A stretch of 8,993 nucleotides of DNA from Candidatus Rokuibacteriota bacterium (lineage in GTDB: Bacteria; Methylomirabilota; Methylomirabilia; Rokubacteriales; JACPHL01), in assembly GCA_016188625.1 (NCBI GenBank), contig JACPHL010000260.1, forward strand, positions 1-8,993, read 5' to 3'. A program made the translations under genes and the position numbers. The notes below the pieces were generated by a model that saw only the letters and a program-made list of their open reading frames with translations, did no database searches and was not told where the DNA came from. Of this stretch, positions 1 through 8,731 are shown one piece after another. Position 1 is the stretch's first letter; every line of letters begins with the position of its first letter.

Positions 1-526
1 CGCCGGTGGGGGTGCCGAAGATGGCTTGGGGGGTGAGGAACATGTGGTCGATGAAGGTGAGCGGGTGCGTCCGGCGGATCGTCAGCGGCGCGGGGAAGTG
101 GTCGCCGAAGAGCGCGTAGAAGACGAACACGCTGGCGATGATCGGCAGGGGCCAGCCGGTCATCCGGCGGGCCGCCTCGAGCACGAGGAGGATCGTCAGG
201 GCGCCGAAGACGACGTCGAGGGTGGTCATCGGCCCGTAGTACCACTCCCGCCGGACGATGCGCTCGTGCTCGACGATCAGGTAGAGGTCGATGGCGAAGG
301 TGAGGAGGGCCAGGGGGATGTCGATCGCCCCGGCCAGGCGCCGAGGGAGCCGGCGCGAGCACGGCACCGTGAGGAAGCAGAGGGCGAGGAGCGTCATGAG
401 GTGCACGGTGCGCTGGAGCATCGACTCGAAGGCCCCGAACGCGCCGGCCCACAGGTGGAAGCCGGACAGGGCGACCGCGAGGGCGCCGATCAGCCACTTG
501 GCGGTGCGGCTCTCCAGGAGCGCCAT
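1..526 (-). CDS. TRAP transporter fused permease (4TM/12TM), N-terminal part
   Basis: Inner-membrane permease that would import an organic acid with the TAXI binding protein encoded just upstream. Only the first 175 residues are present; the gene leaves the window at base 1, and intact fused permeases are roughly 600-700 residues. Visible hydrophobic segments lie at about residues 11-33, 41-56, 66-86 and 103-140, matching the small DctQ-like part plus the start of the DctM-like part. Family-like stretches are FHLWAGAFGAFESMLQR near residue 23, FYALFGDHFPAPLTI at 136-150 and QAIFGTPTG at the edge. The start is the ATG at 526. It is in frame with the TGA of the preceding binding-protein gene, and none of the 16 codons between is a usable start, so an upstream start is excluded. 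No Shine-Dalgarno sequence sits at normal distance; the only purine-rich run is inside the hairpin at 537-564. Order after the TAXI gene is typical of TRAP-TAXI loci. Confidence 0.88.
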   Translation of the reverse strand, partial: MALLESRTAKWLIGALAVALSGFHLWAGAFGAFESMLQRTVHLMTLLALCFLTVPCSRRLPRRLAGAIDIPLALLTFAIDLYLIVEHERIVRREWYYGPMTTLDVVFGALTILLVLEAARRMTGWPLPIIASVFVFYALFGDHFPAPLTIRRTHPLTFIDHMFLTPQAIFGTPTG

Positions 527-536
527 GTCAGGGGAC

Positions 537-564
537 GGCCGGGGAGGGTCTCCCCTCCCCGGCC
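537..564 (-). promoter_or_regulatory. Perfect 12-bp hairpin with GAGA tetraloop between TAXI and permease genes
   Basis: Seen directly: on the transcribed strand the arm GGCCGGGGAGGG, the loop GAGA and the arm CCCTCCCCGGCC form a perfect inverted repeat. The loop fits the GNRA tetraloop pattern. The hairpin starts 10 bases after the binding-protein stop and ends 10 bases before the permease ATG. No U-run follows, so it is not a classical intrinsic terminator. In transporter operons such hairpins often stabilise the binding-protein message or reduce downstream expression. Here the stem also buries GGGGAGGG, the only Shine-Dalgarno-like sequence upstream of the permease. The role is inferred; the structure itself is unambiguous. 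Confidence 0.72.
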
Positions 565-574
565 GCGGGCTCGC

Positions 575-1591
575 TCACTTGAGGTAGCCCTTCTCCTCGT
601 AGAGCATCCGGGCGCCGTCATGGAGGGGGAAGCCGCCGATGTGCCGGGCCATCGCCTCGGGCTTGAAACCGGCGAGGGCGGCGTGGAAGGTCTTGAACTT
701 GGCGCTGTTCTCCGCCACCGCCTTCAGGCAGGCGTAGACGACCTCCTTCGGGAGCTCGGCGCGGGCCACGAAGACCCCGCCGTCGGTGGGCGCCGGCACC
801 GGCTCGGTCTGGCCGCGGAACTCCCCGGCCGGCAGCATCCCCTCGACGAAGCCGTACTTCTTCGACAGGTGGTCGATCAGATCCCGGTCCCACTGGAGGA
901 ACTTCATCTCGCGGGCGGTGGTCAGGTCCACCAGCCAGCCGATCTTGCCGGTGACCACGGCGAGGATCCCGTCGGCGTGGCCGTCCTTGATGAGGTTCAC
1001 GCCGTCGGCCCACGCCACGTGGCTCATCTTGCCGCCCCACTCCGCCAGCTTCTCCCAGTTCCCGCCCATCTCCTCGAAGGCGGTCCGCCAGATCCACTCG
1101 GTCGCGTTCCCCTTGGCCAGGGTCGTCAGGCGCGCGGGCCTCTTGTTCCGCACGATGTCCGAGACCGTGGTCGCGGGGAAGTCCTTCCGCACCACCGCGA
1201 TGAACTGGTACTCGTCCTGCACGTTCACGATGGCCCGGACGTTGGGGTAGTCCTGGTCGAACGCCCCCTGCTTCTGCACCGCCAGCTTGGTCATGATCCG
1301 GGTCGTCGAGGACAGGTCCAGCTCGCCCTTGTTGGTCCGGGGGATGTTGCCGATCCACCCCCCGGGCACCACGCTGATCTTGATCCCCGGGTAGGCGTCC
1401 CCCACGGTCTTGGCGAAGCCGGTCATCTCCACGTAGCCGATCCCGCCGACGGTGCCCCCGCCGGCCCTGAGGTTCGCGGTCACCTTCGTGGGGTCCACGG
1501 CGGCCTCGCCGAGCGGCACCCCGGCCAGCCGCGACGCGAGCACCCCGCCCCCCGCCGCGCCCATGACCTTCAAGAATCCCCTCCGATCCAT
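575..1591 (-). CDS. TAXI family TRAP transporter solute-binding subunit
   Basis: Periplasmic binding protein of 338 residues, a normal length for the TAXI family; it delivers a substrate to the TRAP permease encoded next. The N-terminus MDRRGFLKVMGAAGGG is a twin-arginine (Tat) signal, with RR at residues 3-4, the FLK motif and a hydrophobic core to about residue 24. Cleavage is probably near the GEAAVD stretch around residue 30. The mature part begins with the glycine-rich TAXI segment (RAGGGTVGGIGYVEMTGFAK), then AYPGIKISVVPGGWIGNIP and NKGELDLS, corresponding to the family's typical G-x-V-x-N-I-x-x-x-x-x-G-E-x-D-L block. The ATG at 1591 has a strong AAGGAGGAG Shine-Dalgarno at about 1595-1603. 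It lies 21 bases after the flavoprotein stop, so the two are almost certainly co-transcribed. The ligand cannot be read from sequence; TAXI proteins with known ligands bind small organic acids such as glutamate or dicarboxylates. Confidence 0.92.
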   Translation of the reverse strand: MDRRGFLKVMGAAGGGVLASRLAGVPLGEAAVDPTKVTANLRAGGGTVGGIGYVEMTGFAKTVGDAYPGIKISVVPGGWIGNIPRTNKGELDLSSTTRIMTKLAVQKQGAFDQDYPNVRAIVNVQDEYQFIAVVRKDFPATTVSDIVRNKRPARLTTLAKGNATEWIWRTAFEEMGGNWEKLAEWGGKMSHVAWADGVNLIKDGHADGILAVVTGKIGWLVDLTTAREMKFLQWDRDLIDHLSKKYGFVEGMLPAGEFRGQTEPVPAPTDGGVFVARAELPKEVVYACLKAVAENSAKFKTFHAALAGFKPEAMARHIGGFPLHDGARMLYEEKGYLK

Positions 1592-1612
1592 GGTCTCCTC
1601 CTTGGCTTGGCG

Positions 1613-3346
1613 TTAGTCTCCCACCTCGACGGTGAGCGCCCCGGCGCCCATCGCCTCGGGCTCCCTCCGGCTGAACCTGACGGGCTGGGTCCACACCTCC
1701 ATCCCGCCCCCGTCCTTGACCCGGACGTGGACGTTGACAAGCCAGGCCGGGGCGGGCTCCGGGTGGTCCCGACGGTAGTGGGCGCCGCGGCTCTCCCTCC
1801 GCTCGAGCGCGGAGCGCGCGATCACCCGTGCGGTGGTCACCTGGCTGAGGAGATTCAGCCAGTCCTGCCACGCGAGGTTGTACTCTCGCCCTCCCGGGAC
1901 CGACACGGCCCGGACCCGCTCGGCCATGGCCTCAAGCTCCTCGCCCGCGGATCGGAGTCCCTCGCCGTCCCGGATGAGCCCGACCCGCTCCCACATGAGC
2001 CGACGGAGCCTGGCCTGGAGCGCGTAGAGGTCCTCCCCGCCGCGGGCGCCGAGGGGCGCCAGGAGCCGATCGGCCCGCTCGGCCGCCCGGGCCTCCGAGA
2101 CCCGGGGGAGCGGCCGGCCCTCGACCCACTCGGCCGTGACATCCCCCGCGATCCCGCCGAAGACCGTGGAGTCGGCCACGCCGTTGCCGCCGAGCCGGTT
2201 GGCCCCGTGCACGCCCCCCGCGTCCTCGCCGGCGGCGAACAACCCCTCGAGGAGCGTCCGGCACGAGGGGTCGATGACGACCCCCCCCATCATGAAGTGC
2301 GCCGTCGGCCCCACCTCCACGGGCTCCCGCGCCAGGTCCCGGCCGAAGTCCCGGCACCGCTTGACCATCCCCCGGAAGTTGCGCTCGACGAACTCCGCGC
2401 CGAGGTGGGAGACGTCGAGCCAGACGCCGCCGTTCGCGGTCCCCCGCCCCTCCGCGACCTCCAGGTACGAGGCCCGCGCCACCAGGTCGCGGGTCGAGCG
2501 CTCCATGCGGCCCGGGTCGTGGGCGGCCATGAACCGCTCGCCGAGCCCGTTCCGGAGGTGGCCGCCCGCCCCCCGGAGCCCCTCCTCCAGGAGGGCCCCG
2601 GTCATCAGGGAGCCGGGGACCACGAGGCCCGTCGGGTGGAACTGGATCATCTCCATGTCCCGGAGCGGCGCGCCGGCCGCGAACGCCATCGCGATCCCGT
2701 CCGCCGCCTTGTCGGCGGAGCAGGCGACGACCCTGTACATGGCGGGGCCGCCCCCCATGGCGAGGAGGGTGGCGCGGCTCCGGAGTAGGCTGAACCGGCC
2801 GCTCCGGAGGTCGAGCAAGAGGGCGCCGCCGACCCGCCCCTCCTCGTCCTGGAGGAGCTCCACCGCCCGGTGCTCCTCGAGGACCCGGACAGGACGGACC
2901 CAGGCCTGCTCGGTCAGCCGGTTCATGATCTCGATCCCGGTGAGGTCCCCCTTGTGGACGGTCCGGTCGTAGGATTGCCCGGCGAACGGCTTCTGGTGGA
3001 TCCGCCCGTCGGGCGTGCGGTCGAAGAAGCAGCCGTAGCGGGCCTCGAGCTCGAGGAGGCGCCGCGGGGCCTCGCGCACGAGGGTCCAGGCCAGCTCCTG
3101 GTCGTTGATCCACCCGCCTCCCCGGAGCGTGTCCAGGAGGTGGGCCTCGAGCGAGTCCGGAGGCGCCAGCGCCGCGTTGTAGCCGCCCTGGACCATCCGG
3201 GTGCAGCCGGCCCGGCCCAGGAGCCCCTTGACGACCACCGTGACCGAGGGGCTCGGGGTCCGGTCGGTCGCGTGGAGGGCGGCCGAGAGGCCGGCCCCAC
3301 CCGCCCCGAGGATCAGGATGTCCGCGTCGAGGCGCTCCACGGCCAC
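1613..3346 (-). CDS. FAD-dependent fumarate reductase/succinate dehydrogenase-type flavoprotein
   Basis: Cytoplasmic flavoprotein of 577 residues in the SdhA/FrdA/L-aspartate oxidase superfamily. The dinucleotide-binding motif GAGGAG is at residues 14-19 and the second FAD-contact segment QGGYNAAL at 53-60. MIQFHPTG (His237), STRDLVARA (Arg286), GPTAHFMMGG (His350) and VHGANRLGGN (Arg384) match the substrate-binding and catalytic positions of fumarate reductases. GLFAAGEDAGG near 369 is the C-terminal FAD motif. A helical Succ_DH_flav_C-type domain ends with YRRDHPEP. The position that carries the covalently flavinylated His in SdhA/FrdA is Cys48 here (AGCTRMVQGG), so FAD is probably non-covalent. 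No iron-sulfur or membrane-anchor subunit gene is adjacent. The start is a GTG at 3346; a second in-frame GTG at 3340 (giving MERLDADIL) is equally possible, and the Shine-Dalgarno is weak for either. It lies 31 bases after the ThDP gene. It likely oxidises or reduces a C=C bond of a di- or tricarboxylate; the exact substrate is unknown. Confidence 0.87.
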   Translation of the reverse strand: MAVERLDADILILGAGGAGLSAALHATDRTPSPSVTVVVKGLLGRAGCTRMVQGGYNAALAPPDSLEAHLLDTLRGGGWINDQELAWTLVREAPRRLLELEARYGCFFDRTPDGRIHQKPFAGQSYDRTVHKGDLTGIEIMNRLTEQAWVRPVRVLEEHRAVELLQDEEGRVGGALLLDLRSGRFSLLRSRATLLAMGGGPAMYRVVACSADKAADGIAMAFAAGAPLRDMEMIQFHPTGLVVPGSLMTGALLEEGLRGAGGHLRNGLGERFMAAHDPGRMERSTRDLVARASYLEVAEGRGTANGGVWLDVSHLGAEFVERNFRGMVKRCRDFGRDLAREPVEVGPTAHFMMGGVVIDPSCRTLLEGLFAAGEDAGGVHGANRLGGNGVADSTVFGGIAGDVTAEWVEGRPLPRVSEARAAERADRLLAPLGARGGEDLYALQARLRRLMWERVGLIRDGEGLRSAGEELEAMAERVRAVSVPGGREYNLAWQDWLNLLSQVTTARVIARSALERRESRGAHYRRDHPEPAPAWLVNVHVRVKDGGGMEVWTQPVRFSRREPEAMGAGALTVEVGD

Positions 3347-3377
3347 GCGCTCATCCGGCGGGCGGGTGCGGCACGGT

Positions 3378-5044
3378 CTACCGCCGGCAGACCACGTTCA
3401 GGAGGGCCTGGCGCCGCTCCTCCCGGACCGCGTGGAGGGCCCGGCGGAGGGCCGGGACCAGCTCGGCCGGCTCCTCCACCCGCTCGCCGTAGCCGTCGAA
3501 GGCGCGGACGATCTCCTCGTAGCGCGGCGCGGGCGCCAGGTCGCTCAGCGGGATGTGGCGGGTGGTCGCGGCCCAGCCGTCCGGGTGGAGGCCGAGGCAG
3601 GCGGACTTGACCGCGTCCCAGCTCTCGTTGTTGAAGACCACGGTGAGAACCGGCAGCTCGTGCATCCTGGCGGCGAAGTGGCAGGCCGTGGGGACGCTGA
3701 ACAGGTACGCCCCGTCCCCCAGGGTGGCGATGACCGTCTTTCCCGGCGCCCCCAGCTTGGCCCCGAGGGCCGCCCCGAACCCCCAGCCGAGGCCGGAGGA
3801 GGGCGGGCTGGCGAGGTAGGAGCCGGGCTCGGCGAGGGGGGCGTGGCGGAGGTCGAGGGGGTACTCGTTGACGACGATGGTCTCCCGGTCCAGGACCTCG
3901 CCGACGCAGCGCGAGGCCCACTGAAAGCCGATCGGGCGCTGCTCCGCCTCGGCGCGGGCCGCGGCCAGCCAGACCTGGCGTTGGGCCCGATGCTCGGCGG
4001 CGAGGCGCTCGGTCCGCGAGGCGGCGATGGCGGGCCGGACGCGCTTGCCCACCGCCTCGGCGAGGAGGCCGAGCGCGACCGCCGGGTCCGCGGCCAGGAC
4101 GACGTCCGAGGGGTAGCTCCGGATCGGGTAGCGGCTGAAGTGGGGGTCCACAGCCAGGTGGATGACCCTGGCCTCCTCGCGCGGCTTCTGGATGGAGGGG
4201 TACCAGGGGACATCCGAGTCGAGGACCAGGAGGACATCGGCCTCCGCCACGGCCGGGTTCCCCTCGAAGGGGAGGCCGAACCCCAGCTGGCAGGGGTGAT
4301 CGTGGGGGAAGTTCATGTAGAACGGGTTGGTCTCGGATCGCGTCCCGCCGACGAGGCGACGACCAGGGGGAAGCGGGCCCCGGCCAGGAGCTCGGCCGCC
4401 TCCGCGAGCCGGGCCGGGTCGGGGTAGCGCCGGCCGGCCGCCCCCCGCCGGGGCGGCGAGGTGATGGTGATCGCCTCGACGGGCTGGGCGAGGACCTCGC
4501 GCGGCAGGGTGAGATAGACCGGCCCGCGGGGGTCGGCCATCGCCAGCTCGAGGGCCCGGTCCACCACCGCCTCGAGCTGGGTGGCGTTCCGGAGCTCGTA
4601 GTCCCACTTCACGAACTCCCGGACCATCCCGGCCTGGTCGAAGGCCTCCTGGGCCCAGTGGATGTAGATGTCCCGCGACCCGGGGAGGCCCTCCTCGGTG
4701 AGCGGCGTCCGCCCGGCGGTGAACAGGATCGGGGCCTGGGAGCGGGCGGCGTTGATGATCGCTCCGACGGCGTTGGCGGTCCCGACGCTGACGTGGACCA
4801 TCACCACCTGCGGGCGACCCGTCACCGCGTAGTAGCCGTGGGCCATCGAGACGGCCACGTACTCGTGGGGGACCAGGATCGGCCTGGGTGATGCTTTCCC
4901 CTCGGCCCGGAAGCGGGCGAGGGCGTCGAGGATGGAGGCGAAATCGGTCCCCGCGTTCCCGAAGAAGCAGTCGATCCCGCGGTCCCGGAGGAGCTCCAGG
5001 TAGGCCTGGGCCACGGTCTCGACCCGGATCGTCTTGGTCGCCAT
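3378..5044 (-). pseudogene. Thiamine-diphosphate-dependent enzyme (acetolactate synthase/decarboxylase superfamily), frameshifted
   Basis: ThDP enzyme split over two frames. The first frame (5044 to about 4334) carries the N-terminal Pyr domain: GNAGTDFASILDAL near residue 29, the activating Glu61 in VPHEYVAVSMAHGYY, and HVSVGTANAVGAI at 84-96. The second frame (about 4334 to the TAG at 3378) carries the end of the middle domain (YMNFPHDHP) and the PP domain with the Mg-ThDP motif GDG-X26-NN (GDG near 3712-3720, NN near 3627-3632). The break is at about 4334-4340: frame one reads SSAGRDP and then stops at 4313, while frame two resumes at ETNPFYMNFP. Compared with IlvB-type middle domains, about 20 residues (the helix and next strand between GRDP and the NFP-DHP motif) are missing, so this looks like a deletion of 3n+1 bases rather than a single-base slip. 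Intact length would be about 575 residues. The ATG at 5044 has AGGAGG at 5054-5059 and an 8-base spacer. The substrate is unknown; 2-oxo-acid decarboxylation or carboligation is expected from the family. An assembly or sequencing error is possible. Confidence 0.82.
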
Positions 5045-5092
5045 GCCGTCAACCCTCCTGCCGCGCCCCGAGCCGCGGCCGGCCCCGCCGGG

Positions 5093-5680
5093 CTAGAGGC
5101 CGAGCCTGGCGTAGATCCCGGCCAGGCGGTCGCGCGCGCGCTGGAGGACCTCGTCGTAGAGGTTCTGGCCGTGGGCGTCCATGGCCACGGTCAGCGGCCC
5201 CAGCCCCCGGACCCTGAACCGCCAGAGGCACTCGGGCATGAGGTCCTCCCAGAAGACCTCCTCGATGGCCTCGATCTGGGTCGTCTCCAGCGCGGCGGCC
5301 CCGCCCGTGATGGCGAGGTAGCACCCCCCGAACTCCCGCATCGCGGCCAGGCTCTCGCCCGAGAGGCCGCCCTTGCCGATGATCGCCCGGACGCCGAGAC
5401 GCTCGAGGAGCGGGCGGGTGAAGCGGTCCATGCGCATGCTGGTGGTCGTGCCGATCGAGACGGGCTCGTACCGCCCCTCCGCCTTCCGGACGTTGGGGGC
5501 CGTGTGGAGGACGACGCCGTCGCGGAGGTCCGTCGGGGGCGGGACCCGCTGGTCGAAGAGCCGGATCAGCGTGGCGTCGCGGAGGCCGAAGACCGTGCCG
5601 TCCAGGACGACCGTGTCCCCGGCCCGGAGACCGCGGACCCGGGCCTCGCCGAGGGGCGGGGTAAGGTGGTGGATCGCCAG
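5093..5680 (-). CDS. Class I fumarase/tartrate dehydratase-type hydro-lyase, beta subunit (C-terminal type), non-ATG start
   Basis: Beta subunit of about 195 residues, pairing with the alpha subunit encoded just before it to form an iron-sulfur hydro-lyase (fumarate/malate, mesaconate/citramalate or tartrate type). Motifs: LTPPL and LRAGDTVVLDGTV near the N-terminus, HTAPNVRKAEGRYEPVSIGTTTSMRMD at about 59-85 (cut here as HTAPN and GTTTSMRMD), IGKGGLS, and the C-terminal WRFRVRGLGPLTVAMDAHG, all typical of the FumA C-terminal/TtdB family. The first ATG in this frame is at 5437, which would drop 81 conserved residues including the whole N-terminal beta region. The frame is open from a TGA at 5708-5710, and no ATG, GTG or TTG occurs before 5437. 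The best start is CTG at 5680, preceded by GGGGA at 5687-5691 with a 6-base spacer. CTG at 5686, overlapping the alpha stop as CTGA, is the alternative. The stop is TAG at 5093-5095. Translation is probably coupled to alpha. Confidence 0.85.
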   Translation of the reverse strand: MAIHHLTPPLGEARVRGLRAGDTVVLDGTVFGLRDATLIRLFDQRVPPPTDLRDGVVLHTAPNVRKAEGRYEPVSIGTTTSMRMDRFTRPLLERLGVRAIIGKGGLSGESLAAMREFGGCYLAITGGAAALETTQIEAIEEVFWEDLMPECLWRFRVRGLGPLTVAMDAHGQNLYDEVLQRARDRLAGIYARLGL

Positions 5681-5682
5681 CG

Positions 5683-6597
5683 TCAGTCCCCGTGCTCGAC
5701 CCGGCCGTCAGGATGGATGCGGGCAGAGGCCCGCTCCCCCCGCCAGCACTGGAGCGTGACGGCCACCGGGTTCTGGGTGATGTGGGTGTAGGCCGCCTCG
5801 ACGTGGACGGCCAGCGCCGTGGTGTCGCCGCCGAGGCCCATGGGGCCGAGCCCCGTGGCGTTGATCGCCTCCAGAAGCTCCGCCTCCAGCTTGGCCAGGT
5901 CCGGGTCGTCGTTGGGCTCCCCGATCGGCCGCCAGATCGCCTCCTTGGCGAGCTTCATGGCGAGATCGGCGGTGCCGCCGAGCCCCACGCCCACCACGAT
6001 GGGCGGGCACGGCTTCCCCCCCGCCTCGAGGACCGACTCGAGGATGAACCGCTTGACCCCGCCGAGCCCGTCCGCCGGGGTCAGCATCTTGAGGAAGGAC
6101 TGGTTCTCGGCCCCGGACCCCTTGGGCATCATCCGCAGCTCGAGCCAGTCCCCGCCTTCCAGGAACTCGAAGTCCACCACCGGGATCCGGAGGCCGGTGT
6201 TGGTCTGGGGGTTCTCGCGGGTGATCGGATGGCAGACGCTCGAGCGCAGGGGGTGCTCGACGGTCGCCTGCTGGACCCCCCGGGTCAGCGCCGCCAGGAG
6301 GGCCGGGCCGTCGAACGGGAACCGCCGGCCGACCCGGACCTTGAAGACCGGGATACCGGTGTCCTGGCAGACGAGCAGCCCGTGCGCCTCGGCCACCTCG
6401 ATATTCTTCAGCATCGTCGCCAGGATCTCACGGGCGCGGGGGGAGGTCTCGCGGGCATGGGCGTGGGCCAGGGCGACCTTGACGTCCGGGGGGAGGACCT
6501 TCAGGGCGCGGAGGTAGAGGACCTTGGCGGCCTCGGCGATGACCTCCGGGAGCGGCTCGGTGCCGATGGCGGAACCCTCCGTCTCCGCTGACCGCAC
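5683..6597 (-). CDS. Class I fumarase/tartrate dehydratase-type hydro-lyase, alpha subunit
   Basis: Catalytic iron-sulfur subunit (FumA N-terminal/TtdA type) of a two-subunit class I hydro-lyase, adding or removing water on a dicarboxylate, most simply fumarate to malate. Family motifs are present (residues counted from an ATC codon at 6567): VCQDTGIPVF (Cys67), SSVCHPITRENPQTNTG (Cys112), KPCPPIVVGVGLGGTADLA (Cys187) and TLQCWRGERA (Cys274). Cys67, Cys187 and Cys274 align with the three 4Fe-4S ligands known for this class. The other strong block is GPMGLGGDTTALAVHVE. Length is 294 residues from ATC or 304 from the GTG at 6597, both normal. The start is uncertain. GTG at 6597 is the only standard start codon near the conserved N-terminus but lacks a Shine-Dalgarno. 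An excellent GGAGGG (6575-6580) sits 7 bases before the in-frame ATC at 6567. The longer reading from ATG 6726 overlaps the EF-G-like gene and is low-complexity, so it is rejected. The stop TGA at 5683 abuts the beta subunit. Confidence 0.88.
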   Translation of the reverse strand: MRSAETEGSAIGTEPLPEVIAEAAKVLYLRALKVLPPDVKVALAHAHARETSPRAREILATMLKNIEVAEAHGLLVCQDTGIPVFKVRVGRRFPFDGPALLAALTRGVQQATVEHPLRSSVCHPITRENPQTNTGLRIPVVDFEFLEGGDWLELRMMPKGSGAENQSFLKMLTPADGLGGVKRFILESVLEAGGKPCPPIVVGVGLGGTADLAMKLAKEAIWRPIGEPNDDPDLAKLEAELLEAINATGLGPMGLGGDTTALAVHVEAAYTHITQNPVAVTLQCWRGERASARIHPDGRVEHGD

Positions 6598-6643: not shown

Positions 6644-8731
6644 CTACGCCTTGGCCTCCTTGTCGGCCTTGACCTGGGCCACGATCTTCTCGGCCAGGAA
6701 CGCGGGGACCTCCTCGTAGTGGGCAAACTCCATGGAAAAGCTCCCCCGCCCGCCGGTCATGGAGCGGAGGTGGGGCTCGTAGTTCAGCATCTCGGCCATG
6801 GGGACCTGGGCCCGGACGGCGGTGTAATCCCCTGACGGCTCCATCCCCACGATCCTCCCGCGCCGCCCGTTGAGGTCGCCGATCACGTCGCCGGCGTGGT
6901 CGGTCGGGACCGTCGCCTCCACGTTCATGATCGGCTCGAGGAGGCACGGGTGGGCCTCCATCACGCCCTTCTGGAGGGCCAGCGAGCCGGCGATCTGGAA
7001 GGCGAGGTCGGAGGAGTCCACGCTGTGGTAGGTCCCGTCGTAGAGGCTCACCTGGATGTCCACGACCGGGTAGCCGGCCAGGACCCCCCGCTCCATCGCC
7101 CCGCGGACCCCCTTCTCGACGGCGGGGATGAAGTTGCGTGGGATCGCCCCGCCGACGATGGCGTCCACGAACTCGAAGCCGCCTCCCCGGGGGAGGGGCT
7201 CGATCTCGATCCAGCAGTCCCCGTACTGCCCGCGGCCGCCGGTCTGCTTCTTGTGCTTGCCCTGGGCCTTGGCCTTCCCCTTGACCGTCTCCTTGTAGGG
7301 GATGCGGGGAGGCAGCAGGTTGACGTCGGCCCCGAACTTCCGCTTCATCCGCTCCACCGTCACCTCGATGTGGAGCTGCCCCACGCCCGAGACCAGGAGC
7401 TGCCTCGTCTCGGCGTCGTAGTGGTAGCGGAGGGTGGGGTCCTCCTCGGCGAGCCGGGCCAGGGCGTTACTGATCTTGTCCTCGTCGCCCCTGGCCTTGG
7501 GCTGGATGGCGAAGGAGATGGCGGGCTCAGGGAAGGCGATGGACGGGAACACGATCGGGTGCGCCTCGGCGCAGAGGGTGTCGCCGGTCAGGGTCTCCTT
7601 GAGCTTCGCCGTGACCCCGATCTCGCCCGGGCCGAGGGCGTCGGTCCCCTTCTGCTCCTTCCCCTGGATCAGGGCGACCTGGCCGACCCGCTCCTTGGTC
7701 TCGCGGGTCGCGTTGTAGACCTGGGAGTTGGAGGTGAGGTGGCCCGAGTAGACCCGGAACAGGGTGAGCTTGCCGACGTGGGGATCGGTGAAGGTCTTGA
7801 AGACCAGCGCGGAGAAGGGCTCCTTGGGGCCGGGCGCGCGGGTGACCGGCTGCTTGGTCTTGGGATCGGTCCCCTCCGCGGGGCCGCGGTCGGCGGGTGA
7901 GGGAAAGGACTCGACCACGAGGTCCAGGAGCGGGTGGACCCCGATGTTCCGGGCGGCAGAGCCCAGGAGGACCGGGACGACCTTCCCTCCGGCGATCGCC
8001 ACCCCGAGGGCCTTCAGGAGCTCGGCCTCCCCGAGGCTCCCCTCCTCGAGGTAGCGGGCCAGGAGCTCGTCGTCCGTCTCGGCCACCACCTCCACCAGCC
8101 TCTCCCGGAACTCCCGGGCCCGGTCGGCGAGGTCGTCCGGGATCTCCCCCTGCTCGACCCGCCCCGAGGGGGGATCGGGATAGACGTAGGCCTTCATCCT
8201 CACCAGGTCCACGACCCCGGCGAAGCCGGCCTCGGTCCCGATCGGGAGCTCCAGCGGAACCAGCTTGGCCTTGAGCCGCCGCTGCATGGACTCCAGGGCG
8301 CGGTGGAAGTCGGCCCGGTCGCGGTCCATCCGGTTGACGAAGGCGAGGCGGGGGAGCCCGTAGTCGTTGGCGAACTTCCAGACCTTCTCGGTCTGGACCT
8401 CCACCCCGGCCACGGCGTCGATGACCACCACCGCGCCCTCCACGATCCGGAGGCCGGCCCTGGCCTCGGCGATGAAGTCCCCATACCCCGGCATGTCCAC
8501 CAGGTGGAGCCGGTGACCCTTGAAGTCGCAGTGGGCCACGGCGGTGTTGATGGAGATCTGCCGCTTGACCTCCTCCGGGTCGAAATCGGTGGTGGCGGTG
8601 CCGTCGTCCACCCGACCCAGCCGGCCCGTCGCCCCGGTCGAGAACAAAATAGCCTCGACGAGGGACGTCTTTCCGACCCCGCCGTGGCCGACGAAGCCGA
8701 GGTTGCGGATCTTGGTGACCTCCACGGCCAT
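6644..8731 (-). CDS. fusA: Elongation factor G-like translational GTPase (EF-G-2 type)
   Basis: Translational GTPase of 695 residues with the full five-domain EF-G layout. G1 is GHGGVGKT at residues 15-22, G3 is VDMPGYGDF around 79-85, and G4 is NRMD at 133-136. Domain II follows the insert rich in Lys/Pro near 290-310. Domain III includes LLVSGVGQLHIEVTVERMKRKFG-like residues (GVGQLHIE), domain IV has KKQTGGRGQYGD and the DSSDLAFQIAGSLA block, and domain V ends with MTGGRGSFSMEFAHYEEVP. Canonical EF-G reads AHIDAGKT, DTPGH and NKMD at the three GTPase motifs. The changes here, including Tyr83 in place of the switch II His, match the EF-G-2 paralogue group typified by Thermus thermophilus EF-G-2. 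A canonical fusA next to rpsL/rpsG/tuf is therefore expected elsewhere in the genome, and this gene is likely an accessory translocase or stress-related factor. The ATG at 8731 has GAGGAGG at 8738-8744 and a 6-base spacer. The stop is TAG at 6644-6646. Confidence 0.93.
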   Translation of the reverse strand: MAVEVTKIRNLGFVGHGGVGKTSLVEAILFSTGATGRLGRVDDGTATTDFDPEEVKRQISINTAVAHCDFKGHRLHLVDMPGYGDFIAEARAGLRIVEGAVVVIDAVAGVEVQTEKVWKFANDYGLPRLAFVNRMDRDRADFHRALESMQRRLKAKLVPLELPIGTEAGFAGVVDLVRMKAYVYPDPPSGRVEQGEIPDDLADRAREFRERLVEVVAETDDELLARYLEEGSLGEAELLKALGVAIAGGKVVPVLLGSAARNIGVHPLLDLVVESFPSPADRGPAEGTDPKTKQPVTRAPGPKEPFSALVFKTFTDPHVGKLTLFRVYSGHLTSNSQVYNATRETKERVGQVALIQGKEQKGTDALGPGEIGVTAKLKETLTGDTLCAEAHPIVFPSIAFPEPAISFAIQPKARGDEDKISNALARLAEEDPTLRYHYDAETRQLLVSGVGQLHIEVTVERMKRKFGADVNLLPPRIPYKETVKGKAKAQGKHKKQTGGRGQYGDCWIEIEPLPRGGGFEFVDAIVGGAIPRNFIPAVEKGVRGAMERGVLAGYPVVDIQVSLYDGTYHSVDSSDLAFQIAGSLALQKGVMEAHPCLLEPIMNVEATVPTDHAGDVIGDLNGRRGRIVGMEPSGDYTAVRAQVPMAEMLNYEPHLRSMTGGRGSFSMEFAHYEEVPAFLAEKIVAQVKADKEAKA

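Follow-up and report, generated by a model that had tools for sequence, protein, structure and literature searches.

The six-gene cluster considered here occupies most of an 8,993-nt contig from Candidatus Rokuibacteriota (JACPHL010000260.1 in assembly GCA_016188625.1; G000:C68 in our numbering). The window, i.e. the whole stretch of DNA analyzed, is this entire contig; it belongs to a metagenome-assembled genome that is 84% complete and whose host is probably a member of the order Rokubacteriales. The cluster encodes a two-subunit hydro-lyase (FumA and FumB), a thiamine diphosphate (ThDP)-dependent enzyme, a flavoprotein of the succinate dehydrogenase/fumarate reductase (SDH/FRD) type, and a TAXI-TRAP importer. 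It is probably a lineage-specific version of a widespread and apparently undescribed module for organosulfonate catabolism. That the module serves a sulfonate of some kind is quite probable, and to the complete scheme, with 3-sulfopropionate as the substrate, we assign a probability of about 0.5. The gene content, the co-location of the genes across phyla, their association with sulfite handling, and an invariant residue exchange in the flavoprotein's substrate pocket are observed directly; the substrate, the reactions and their directions we infer.

According to the proposed scheme, the TAXI-TRAP importer would bring in a small carboxylate carrying a sulfonate group; 3-sulfopropionate, which is a sulfo-analogue of succinate, is the most likely candidate. 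Normally working together with SDH-type B/C/D subunits, the flavoprotein would oxidize it to 3-sulfoacrylate, delivering the electrons to quinone, and the FumAB-type hydro-lyase would add water, yielding sulfolactate, the analogue of malate. Sulfolactate would then lose its sulfonate group, most likely through SuyAB, leaving pyruvate and sulfite, the latter to be exported or oxidized, and the ThDP enzyme would provide an optional side step, possibly acting on sulfopyruvate. The choice of intermediates follows from the enzyme types, since these are the types that convert succinate to fumarate and then to malate, the matching sulfonates being 3-sulfopropionate, sulfoacrylate and sulfolactate. 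The release of sulfite from a sulfonate is suggested because exporters, SuyAB-like genes, sulfite dehydrogenases and CuyA occur among the neighbours of related genes. Somewhat more tentatively, the flavoprotein may found a new enzyme family, that of quinone-linked 3-sulfopropionate dehydrogenases, paired with a dedicated fumarase-like sulfoacrylate hydratase and spread over bacterial phyla and haloarchaea.

Profile matches place the flavoprotein in the SDH/FRD superfamily (PF00890, FAD_binding_2, E 7.9e-79; PF02910, Succ_DH_flav_C, E 2.1e-22; both above the gathering scores), and it shares the fold family and most catalytic residues with SdhA, FrdA and TfrA. Still, it scores below all curated cut-offs of these proteins: 431 vs 567 bits for TIGR01812 and 341 vs 727 bits for TIGR01816 (SdhA/FrdA), and 575 vs 718 bits for NF004900 (TfrA, thiol:fumarate reductase A). 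In particular, Thr254 of the SdhA-type substrate pocket, present in SdhA, FrdA and NadB of E. coli, is Glu in all 44 members of the clade to which the window protein belongs, and the FAD-linking His of SdhA/FrdA is replaced by Gly-Cys both in the window protein and in the clade. The equivalents of His242, Glu255, Arg286, His354 and Arg399 are retained; the roles of these residues are established for SdhA/FrdA. The motifs GCTRMVQGG and EEG(L/I)RG are constant in the 44 members, the window protein having EEGLRG. On cut-offs and residues, the identification of the flavoprotein as TfrA, canonical SDH/FRD or aspartate oxidase was rejected.

Monophyly of the clade received moderate support (SH-like 0.75), and its members come from Methylomirabilota, Actinomycetota, Tectomicrobia, Proteobacteria and haloarchaea. 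Genes for B/C/D-type partners adjoin its proteobacterial members. Moreover, most of the searched related genomes with the flavoprotein have two SdhB genes, and in several of these one SdhB maps near the flavoprotein and the other near canonical SDH.

The hydro-lyase pair has the same two-subunit Fe-S architecture as class I fumarase and TtdAB. FumA matches PF05681 (E 1e-91) and TIGR00722 (316 vs 101 bits), FumB matches TIGR00723 (157 vs 145 bits), and the two genes are adjacent. The window FumA is linked to the flavoprotein, and in the tree it falls, apart from TtdA and from the fumarase encoded in the host's tricarboxylic acid (TCA) cycle cluster, into a separate clade of ten members, all of them from flavoprotein/sulfonate loci. 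L(+)-tartrate dehydratase was rejected on this ground and on scores (186 vs 365 bits for NF006084, 153 vs 264 bits for NF006082). The FumB frame has no ATG, GTG or TTG start (positions 5675-5690 of the window), with CTG standing where relatives show ATG or GTG.

Outside the order, plasmid searches recovered the flavoprotein at 48-56% identity in Methylobacterium, Rhodococcus RHA1, Pseudomonas, Cupriavidus, Paracoccus, Sulfitobacter, Pseudorhizobium and haloarchaea (gene calls in unannotated loci rely on a simple composition rule and can have wrong ends). The bacterial plasmid loci unite genes for SDH-type subunits, the flavoprotein and FumAB; the flavoprotein and FumAB are co-located on a Methylobacterium plasmid, in Rhodococcus RHA1, Burkholderiales and Falsiroseomonas, and on several other proteobacterial plasmids. 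On pMRAD01 of M. radiotolerans the order is SdhB-SdhD-SdhC-FumA-FumB-flavoprotein-ThDP, followed by TauE/SafE, a SuyAB-like pair, DctA, and SlcC-like and ComC-like genes. A single stretch in Burkholderiales (locus L322) carries a SuyB-like gene and the genes for SdhB, an Sdh_cyt protein, FumA, FumB, TAXI, TRAP, a short-chain dehydrogenase/reductase (SDR) and the flavoprotein. Two haloarchaeal plasmids combine the TAXI protein, SuyAB-like genes, TauE/SafE, the flavoprotein and SdhB, one of them also having the TRAP permease and a sulfate exporter, and these two loci hold the only plasmid-borne relatives of the window TAXI protein at E<1e-20. Thus, the first-pass annotation was right to regard the cluster as an uptake and catabolic module whose parts travel together, FumAB with the flavoprotein across proteobacteria and Rhodococcus, with TAXI/TRAP joining both in Burkholderiales and joining the flavoprotein in haloarchaea. 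It had named as refutation the case in which such genes are never found together; the parts do recur together, but the exact six-gene order of the window was found in no other genome. In the haloarchaeal loci (L218, L222/L230) a gene of the argininosuccinate-lyase family stands in place of the bacterial FumAB, where it may replace the hydratase.

The association was quantified in one Rhodobacterales family, Rhodobacteraceae, where 41 of 394 sampled genomes carry the flavoprotein, by setting 20 flavoprotein loci against as many control stretches taken from the same genomes. The gene association exceeds chance, as FumA and SdhB were each found in 20/20 loci and in 0/20 controls. TauE accompanies the flavoprotein in 12/20 loci (1/20 controls, p 2e-4), ThDP enzymes in 8/20 (0/20, p 0.0016), TctA in 7/20 (1/20) and SorA in 5/20 (0/20); the p-values overstate the evidence because of the relatedness among the loci. 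A TauE/SafE or YeiH-type exporter lies nearby in 10 of the 11 annotated plasmid loci that carry the flavoprotein, compared to none of four FumA loci without the flavoprotein (a small control set). Other neighbours of flavoprotein loci include SuyZ/YeiH, sulfite dehydrogenases and a sulfolactate-dehydrogenase-like gene, and CuyA (cysteate sulfo-lyase) scores above its cut-off in an island of Pseudomonas MPC6.

These neighbours bear on the substrate class suggested by the first-pass annotation, which had proposed a route for non-sulfonated C4-C6 dicarboxylates (tartrate, methylsuccinate/mesaconate or another such acid). The enzyme families do act on C4 dicarboxylates, a malic-enzyme gene occurs in L322, and the Methylobacterium loci have DctA-type transporters. 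Nevertheless, such a route, including one for a plain C4 acid, is improbable given the recurrent sulfite/sulfate exporters and the SuyAB-like, sulfite dehydrogenase, sulfolactate-dehydrogenase-like and cysteate sulfo-lyase genes, the distance of FumA from tartrate dehydratases (far under the cut-off, as given above, and 34% identical to E. coli TtdA), and the presence of canonical SDH and fumarase genes elsewhere in the host genome, separate from the window flavoprotein. The substrate class had probably been misjudged.

Two further explanations keep a sulfonate as the substrate. With the same module and substrate, water could be added to this carbon, giving a bisulfite adduct of malonate semialdehyde that splits into sulfite and malonate semialdehyde; the latter would be converted to acetyl-CoA by an MmsA-type dehydrogenase, and SuyAB would not be needed. 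Consistent with that, a second FumAB subfamily (type 2) occurs in proteobacterial loci with an MmsA-type dehydrogenase nearby (L217:10674-13833, L223:4624-12302), MmsA adjoining FumAB in Pseudomonas MPC6 and lying 1.3 kb from SdhB in Cupriavidus P-10, and most Rhodobacteraceae loci have no SuyAB. The combination of type-2 FumAB and MmsA suggests a different desulfonation chemistry through malonate semialdehyde in these loci. For the window we consider it unlikely, since the MmsA loci carry type-2 FumAB and not the window's subfamily, MmsA is clear in only two loci, and in Methylobacterium, Burkholderiales and two Rokubacteria the loci with the window-type FumA also have SuyAB-like genes.

Alternatively, the substrate could be sulfosuccinate or another larger sulfonate, dehydrogenated and hydrated at the sulfonate carbon to give oxaloacetate and sulfite. 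The enzyme types and the sulfite exporters fit this equally well, and many type-2 loci lack a further desulfonating gene; but the SuyAB-like, SlcC/ComC-like and MmsA neighbours indicate three-carbon intermediates, and no bacterial sulfosuccinate dehydrogenase was found in the literature, so that this substrate, too, is improbable.

Within the order, FumA orthologues are present at 74-80% identity in six other genomes, and the flavoprotein at 69-80% in 38 of 60 genomes. SuyAB-like genes adjoin FumB in G059 (L206), and in G033 (L208) they are located next to the gene for elongation factor G (EF-G), about 5 kb from FumAB. The most informative relative is G025, where the order is EF-G, FumA, FumB, an unassigned gene, ComA, SoeBC-like genes, a SoeA-like gene, ThDP, PIN, flavoprotein, TctB, TctA; it spans contigs C215 and C223, which were joined because one SoeA-like gene is common to both contig ends. 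By its genes, the window looks like the G025 locus without ComA and Soe and with TAXI-TRAP replacing TctAB. ComA (phosphosulfolactate synthase, above the NCBIfam cut-off) of G025 is encoded at L209:9470-10501, between FumB and the Soe-like operon, and just 4 of 59 genomes from the order encode ComA. The PIN-domain gene between ThDP and the flavoprotein in G025 encodes a VapC-like toxin (L093:10274-10684). In G033, DsrE-type sulfur carrier genes are found a few hundred bases downstream of FumB (L208:4876-5788). In most of the fetched loci from the order the flavoprotein is located near Sox genes and a SoeA/PhsA-like molybdoenzyme. In many Rokubacteria (L197, L199-L204) it lies between Sox genes with a SoeABC-like enzyme and a TCA-cycle gene cluster.

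Several observations weigh against the proposed 3-sulfopropionate scheme. The window itself has no sulfur-specific genes. Of the desulfonating and sulfite-handling genes seen in many related loci, the host assembly, 84% complete, yielded no SuyB, ComA or SoeA-like enzyme, and a flavoprotein-linked SdhB was not found in it either. No exporter occurs within about 10 kb in 8 of the 20 Rhodobacteraceae loci. The SuyAB-like label relies on the sizes of split UxaA-family genes and on context, no curated SuyAB model being matched, and the ComC-like gene scores under its family cut-off. The Glu in the flavoprotein pocket is no obvious ligand for a sulfonate. The malic-enzyme gene of L322, downstream of the flavoprotein (L322:6761-8437), could favour a C4 acid as the substrate, or could act on the malate analogue. 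Moreover, a published scheme of sulfofucose degradation bypasses 3-sulfopropionate (PMC12421959).

The close relatives of the window TAXI-TRAP genes (82-83% identity) are also unfavourable, as they were found only in G031 among the genomes of the order and stand there apart from the enzymes. They would fit a chance or decaying assemblage, in which a flavoprotein and an unrelated transporter happen to adjoin a housekeeping EF-G-FumAB group and a dead ThDP gene, as would the broken ThDP gene of the window and the other Rokubacteria with FumAB near EF-G and no flavoprotein on the same contig. This explanation is very improbable, considering that FumAB, TAXI, TRAP and the flavoprotein recur as one run in Burkholderiales, that TAXI/TRAP accompany the flavoprotein in haloarchaea, and that the window genes are tightly spaced, co-directional and, apart from the ThDP gene, intact.

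The window ThDP protein is clearly related to the NF006203/PRK08327 family by its profile matches. The N-terminal part (profile positions 4-235 of NF006203) is encoded at 4334-5044 in one frame, and the C-terminal part (257-569) at 3378-4331 in another, each scoring about 323 bits against a cut-off of 456 bits, and no full-length open frame is present. When aligned with four relatives, the gene lacks 55 nt at about 4333 (within 4320-4345), a clean out-of-frame deletion. As both halves otherwise match NF006203 well, the deletion is either a recent, real mutation or an assembly error. The ThDP subfamily varies by locus (PRK08327 in the window, a PRK06154-like one in G037, and one matching PRK05858 best in L219/L227), most relatives of the window protein are encoded away from the flavoprotein, and many flavoprotein loci have no ThDP gene at all. 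Hence, the ThDP enzyme was rejected as a fixed part of the module, in which the first-pass annotation had counted it as a standing member; judged from these loci, it is a recurrent but optional component.

3-Sulfopropionate can originate from homotaurine and, in some bacteria, from sulfoquinovose, the sugar of the plant sulfolipid. According to a 2024 study (PMC11489063), there had been no earlier report of its degradation by bacteria, and in a 2026 review (PMC12890257) the mechanism by which Bilophila breaks it down is described as unclear. As cited in PMC11489063, a thesis proposed for Roseovarius nubinhibens a route from homotaurine through 3-sulfopropionate and sulfoacrylate to sulfolactate; these predicted intermediates match the window enzyme types. 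No published genes for this route were found in the literature, and searches combining succinate dehydrogenase or fumarase with sulfonate yielded no paper describing the module.

The closest described system is sulfolactate biomineralization (SlcC/ComC, SuyAB, TauE/SuyZ; e.g. in Paracoccus, PMC12421959), the substrate of SuyAB being (R)-sulfolactate (PMC12421959). Counterparts of its genes adjoin the flavoprotein in several loci, and sulfolactate would be an intermediate in common, but the proposed module prepends an SDH-type dehydrogenase and a fumarase-type hydratase, and the window holds no sulfolactate genes. In PMC12421959, Paracoccus growing on sulfofucose is described to induce a 'fumarate and tartrate metabolism' cluster with a TauE homologue, interpreted there as possibly linked to the Krebs cycle; this cluster may be the same module. 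If the 3-sulfopropionate scheme is true, genes annotated everywhere as succinate dehydrogenase and fumarase of the Krebs cycle would be sulfur-cycle machinery, forming a sulfo-analogue of the succinate-fumarate-malate sequence and supplying the genes for 3-sulfopropionate breakdown. The signature (EEG instead of TEG, together with GCTRMVQGG) would permit re-annotation across genomes, and the question would become testable in culturable strains.

All genes of the window are on the minus strand and read from high to low coordinates, in the order EF-G, FumA, FumB, ThDP enzyme, flavoprotein, TAXI binding protein and the start of the fused TRAP permease (Table 1). Open reading frames (ORFs) and profile matches confirm the six genes and the order described in the first-pass annotation, and its spacers of 2-48 bases are close to those measured between ORF ends (about 5, given the uncertain FumB start, then 48, 31, 21 and 48 nt); it overlooked that the ThDP gene is split and that EF-G precedes FumA, and the lack of a usual start codon in FumB is a further correction.

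Table 1. Protein-coding features of the window.
Feature	Coordinates	Strand	Support or remarks
EF-G (elongation factor G)	6644..8731	-	695-aa ORF; flanking gene
FumA/TtdA-type alpha subunit of Fe-S hydro-lyase; proposed sulfoacrylate hydratase alpha	5683..~6597	-	PF05681, TIGR00722
FumB/TtdB-type beta subunit, start codon uncertain	5093..~5680	-	PF05683, TIGR00723
ThDP-dependent enzyme of the NF006203/PRK08327 kind, interrupted	3378..5044	-	two profile pieces in different frames
Fumarate-reductase/SDH-type flavoprotein of a distinct clade; proposed 3-sulfopropionate dehydrogenase	1613..3346	-	PF00890, PF02910, clade motifs
TAXI-family TRAP solute-binding protein; proposed sulfonate binder	575..1591	-	TIGR02122
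TRAP fused permease, N-terminal part	2..526	-	TIGR02123

As in TAXI-TRAP transporters, the gene for the TAXI binding protein precedes that of a fused permease, here incomplete; related loci use Tct, ABC, TRAP or DctA transporters in its place. The binding protein passes the TIGR02122 cut-off (110 vs 84 bits). Only the first ~175 aa of the permease are present, since the contig ends there, and the match to TIGR02123 covers profile positions 2-164 of 615 (E 1.4e-36; 126 vs 321 bits for this truncated gene).

At the other end of the cluster, EF-G precedes FumA on the same strand, about 46 nt away. It is probably not a part of the pathway. EF-G genes (72-78% identical) directly adjoin FumA in G003 and G025 and lie within about 3 kb of it in G019 and G033 (loci L205, L207, L208, L209), so EF-G is retained near FumAB in several Rokubacteria with no evident functional reason.

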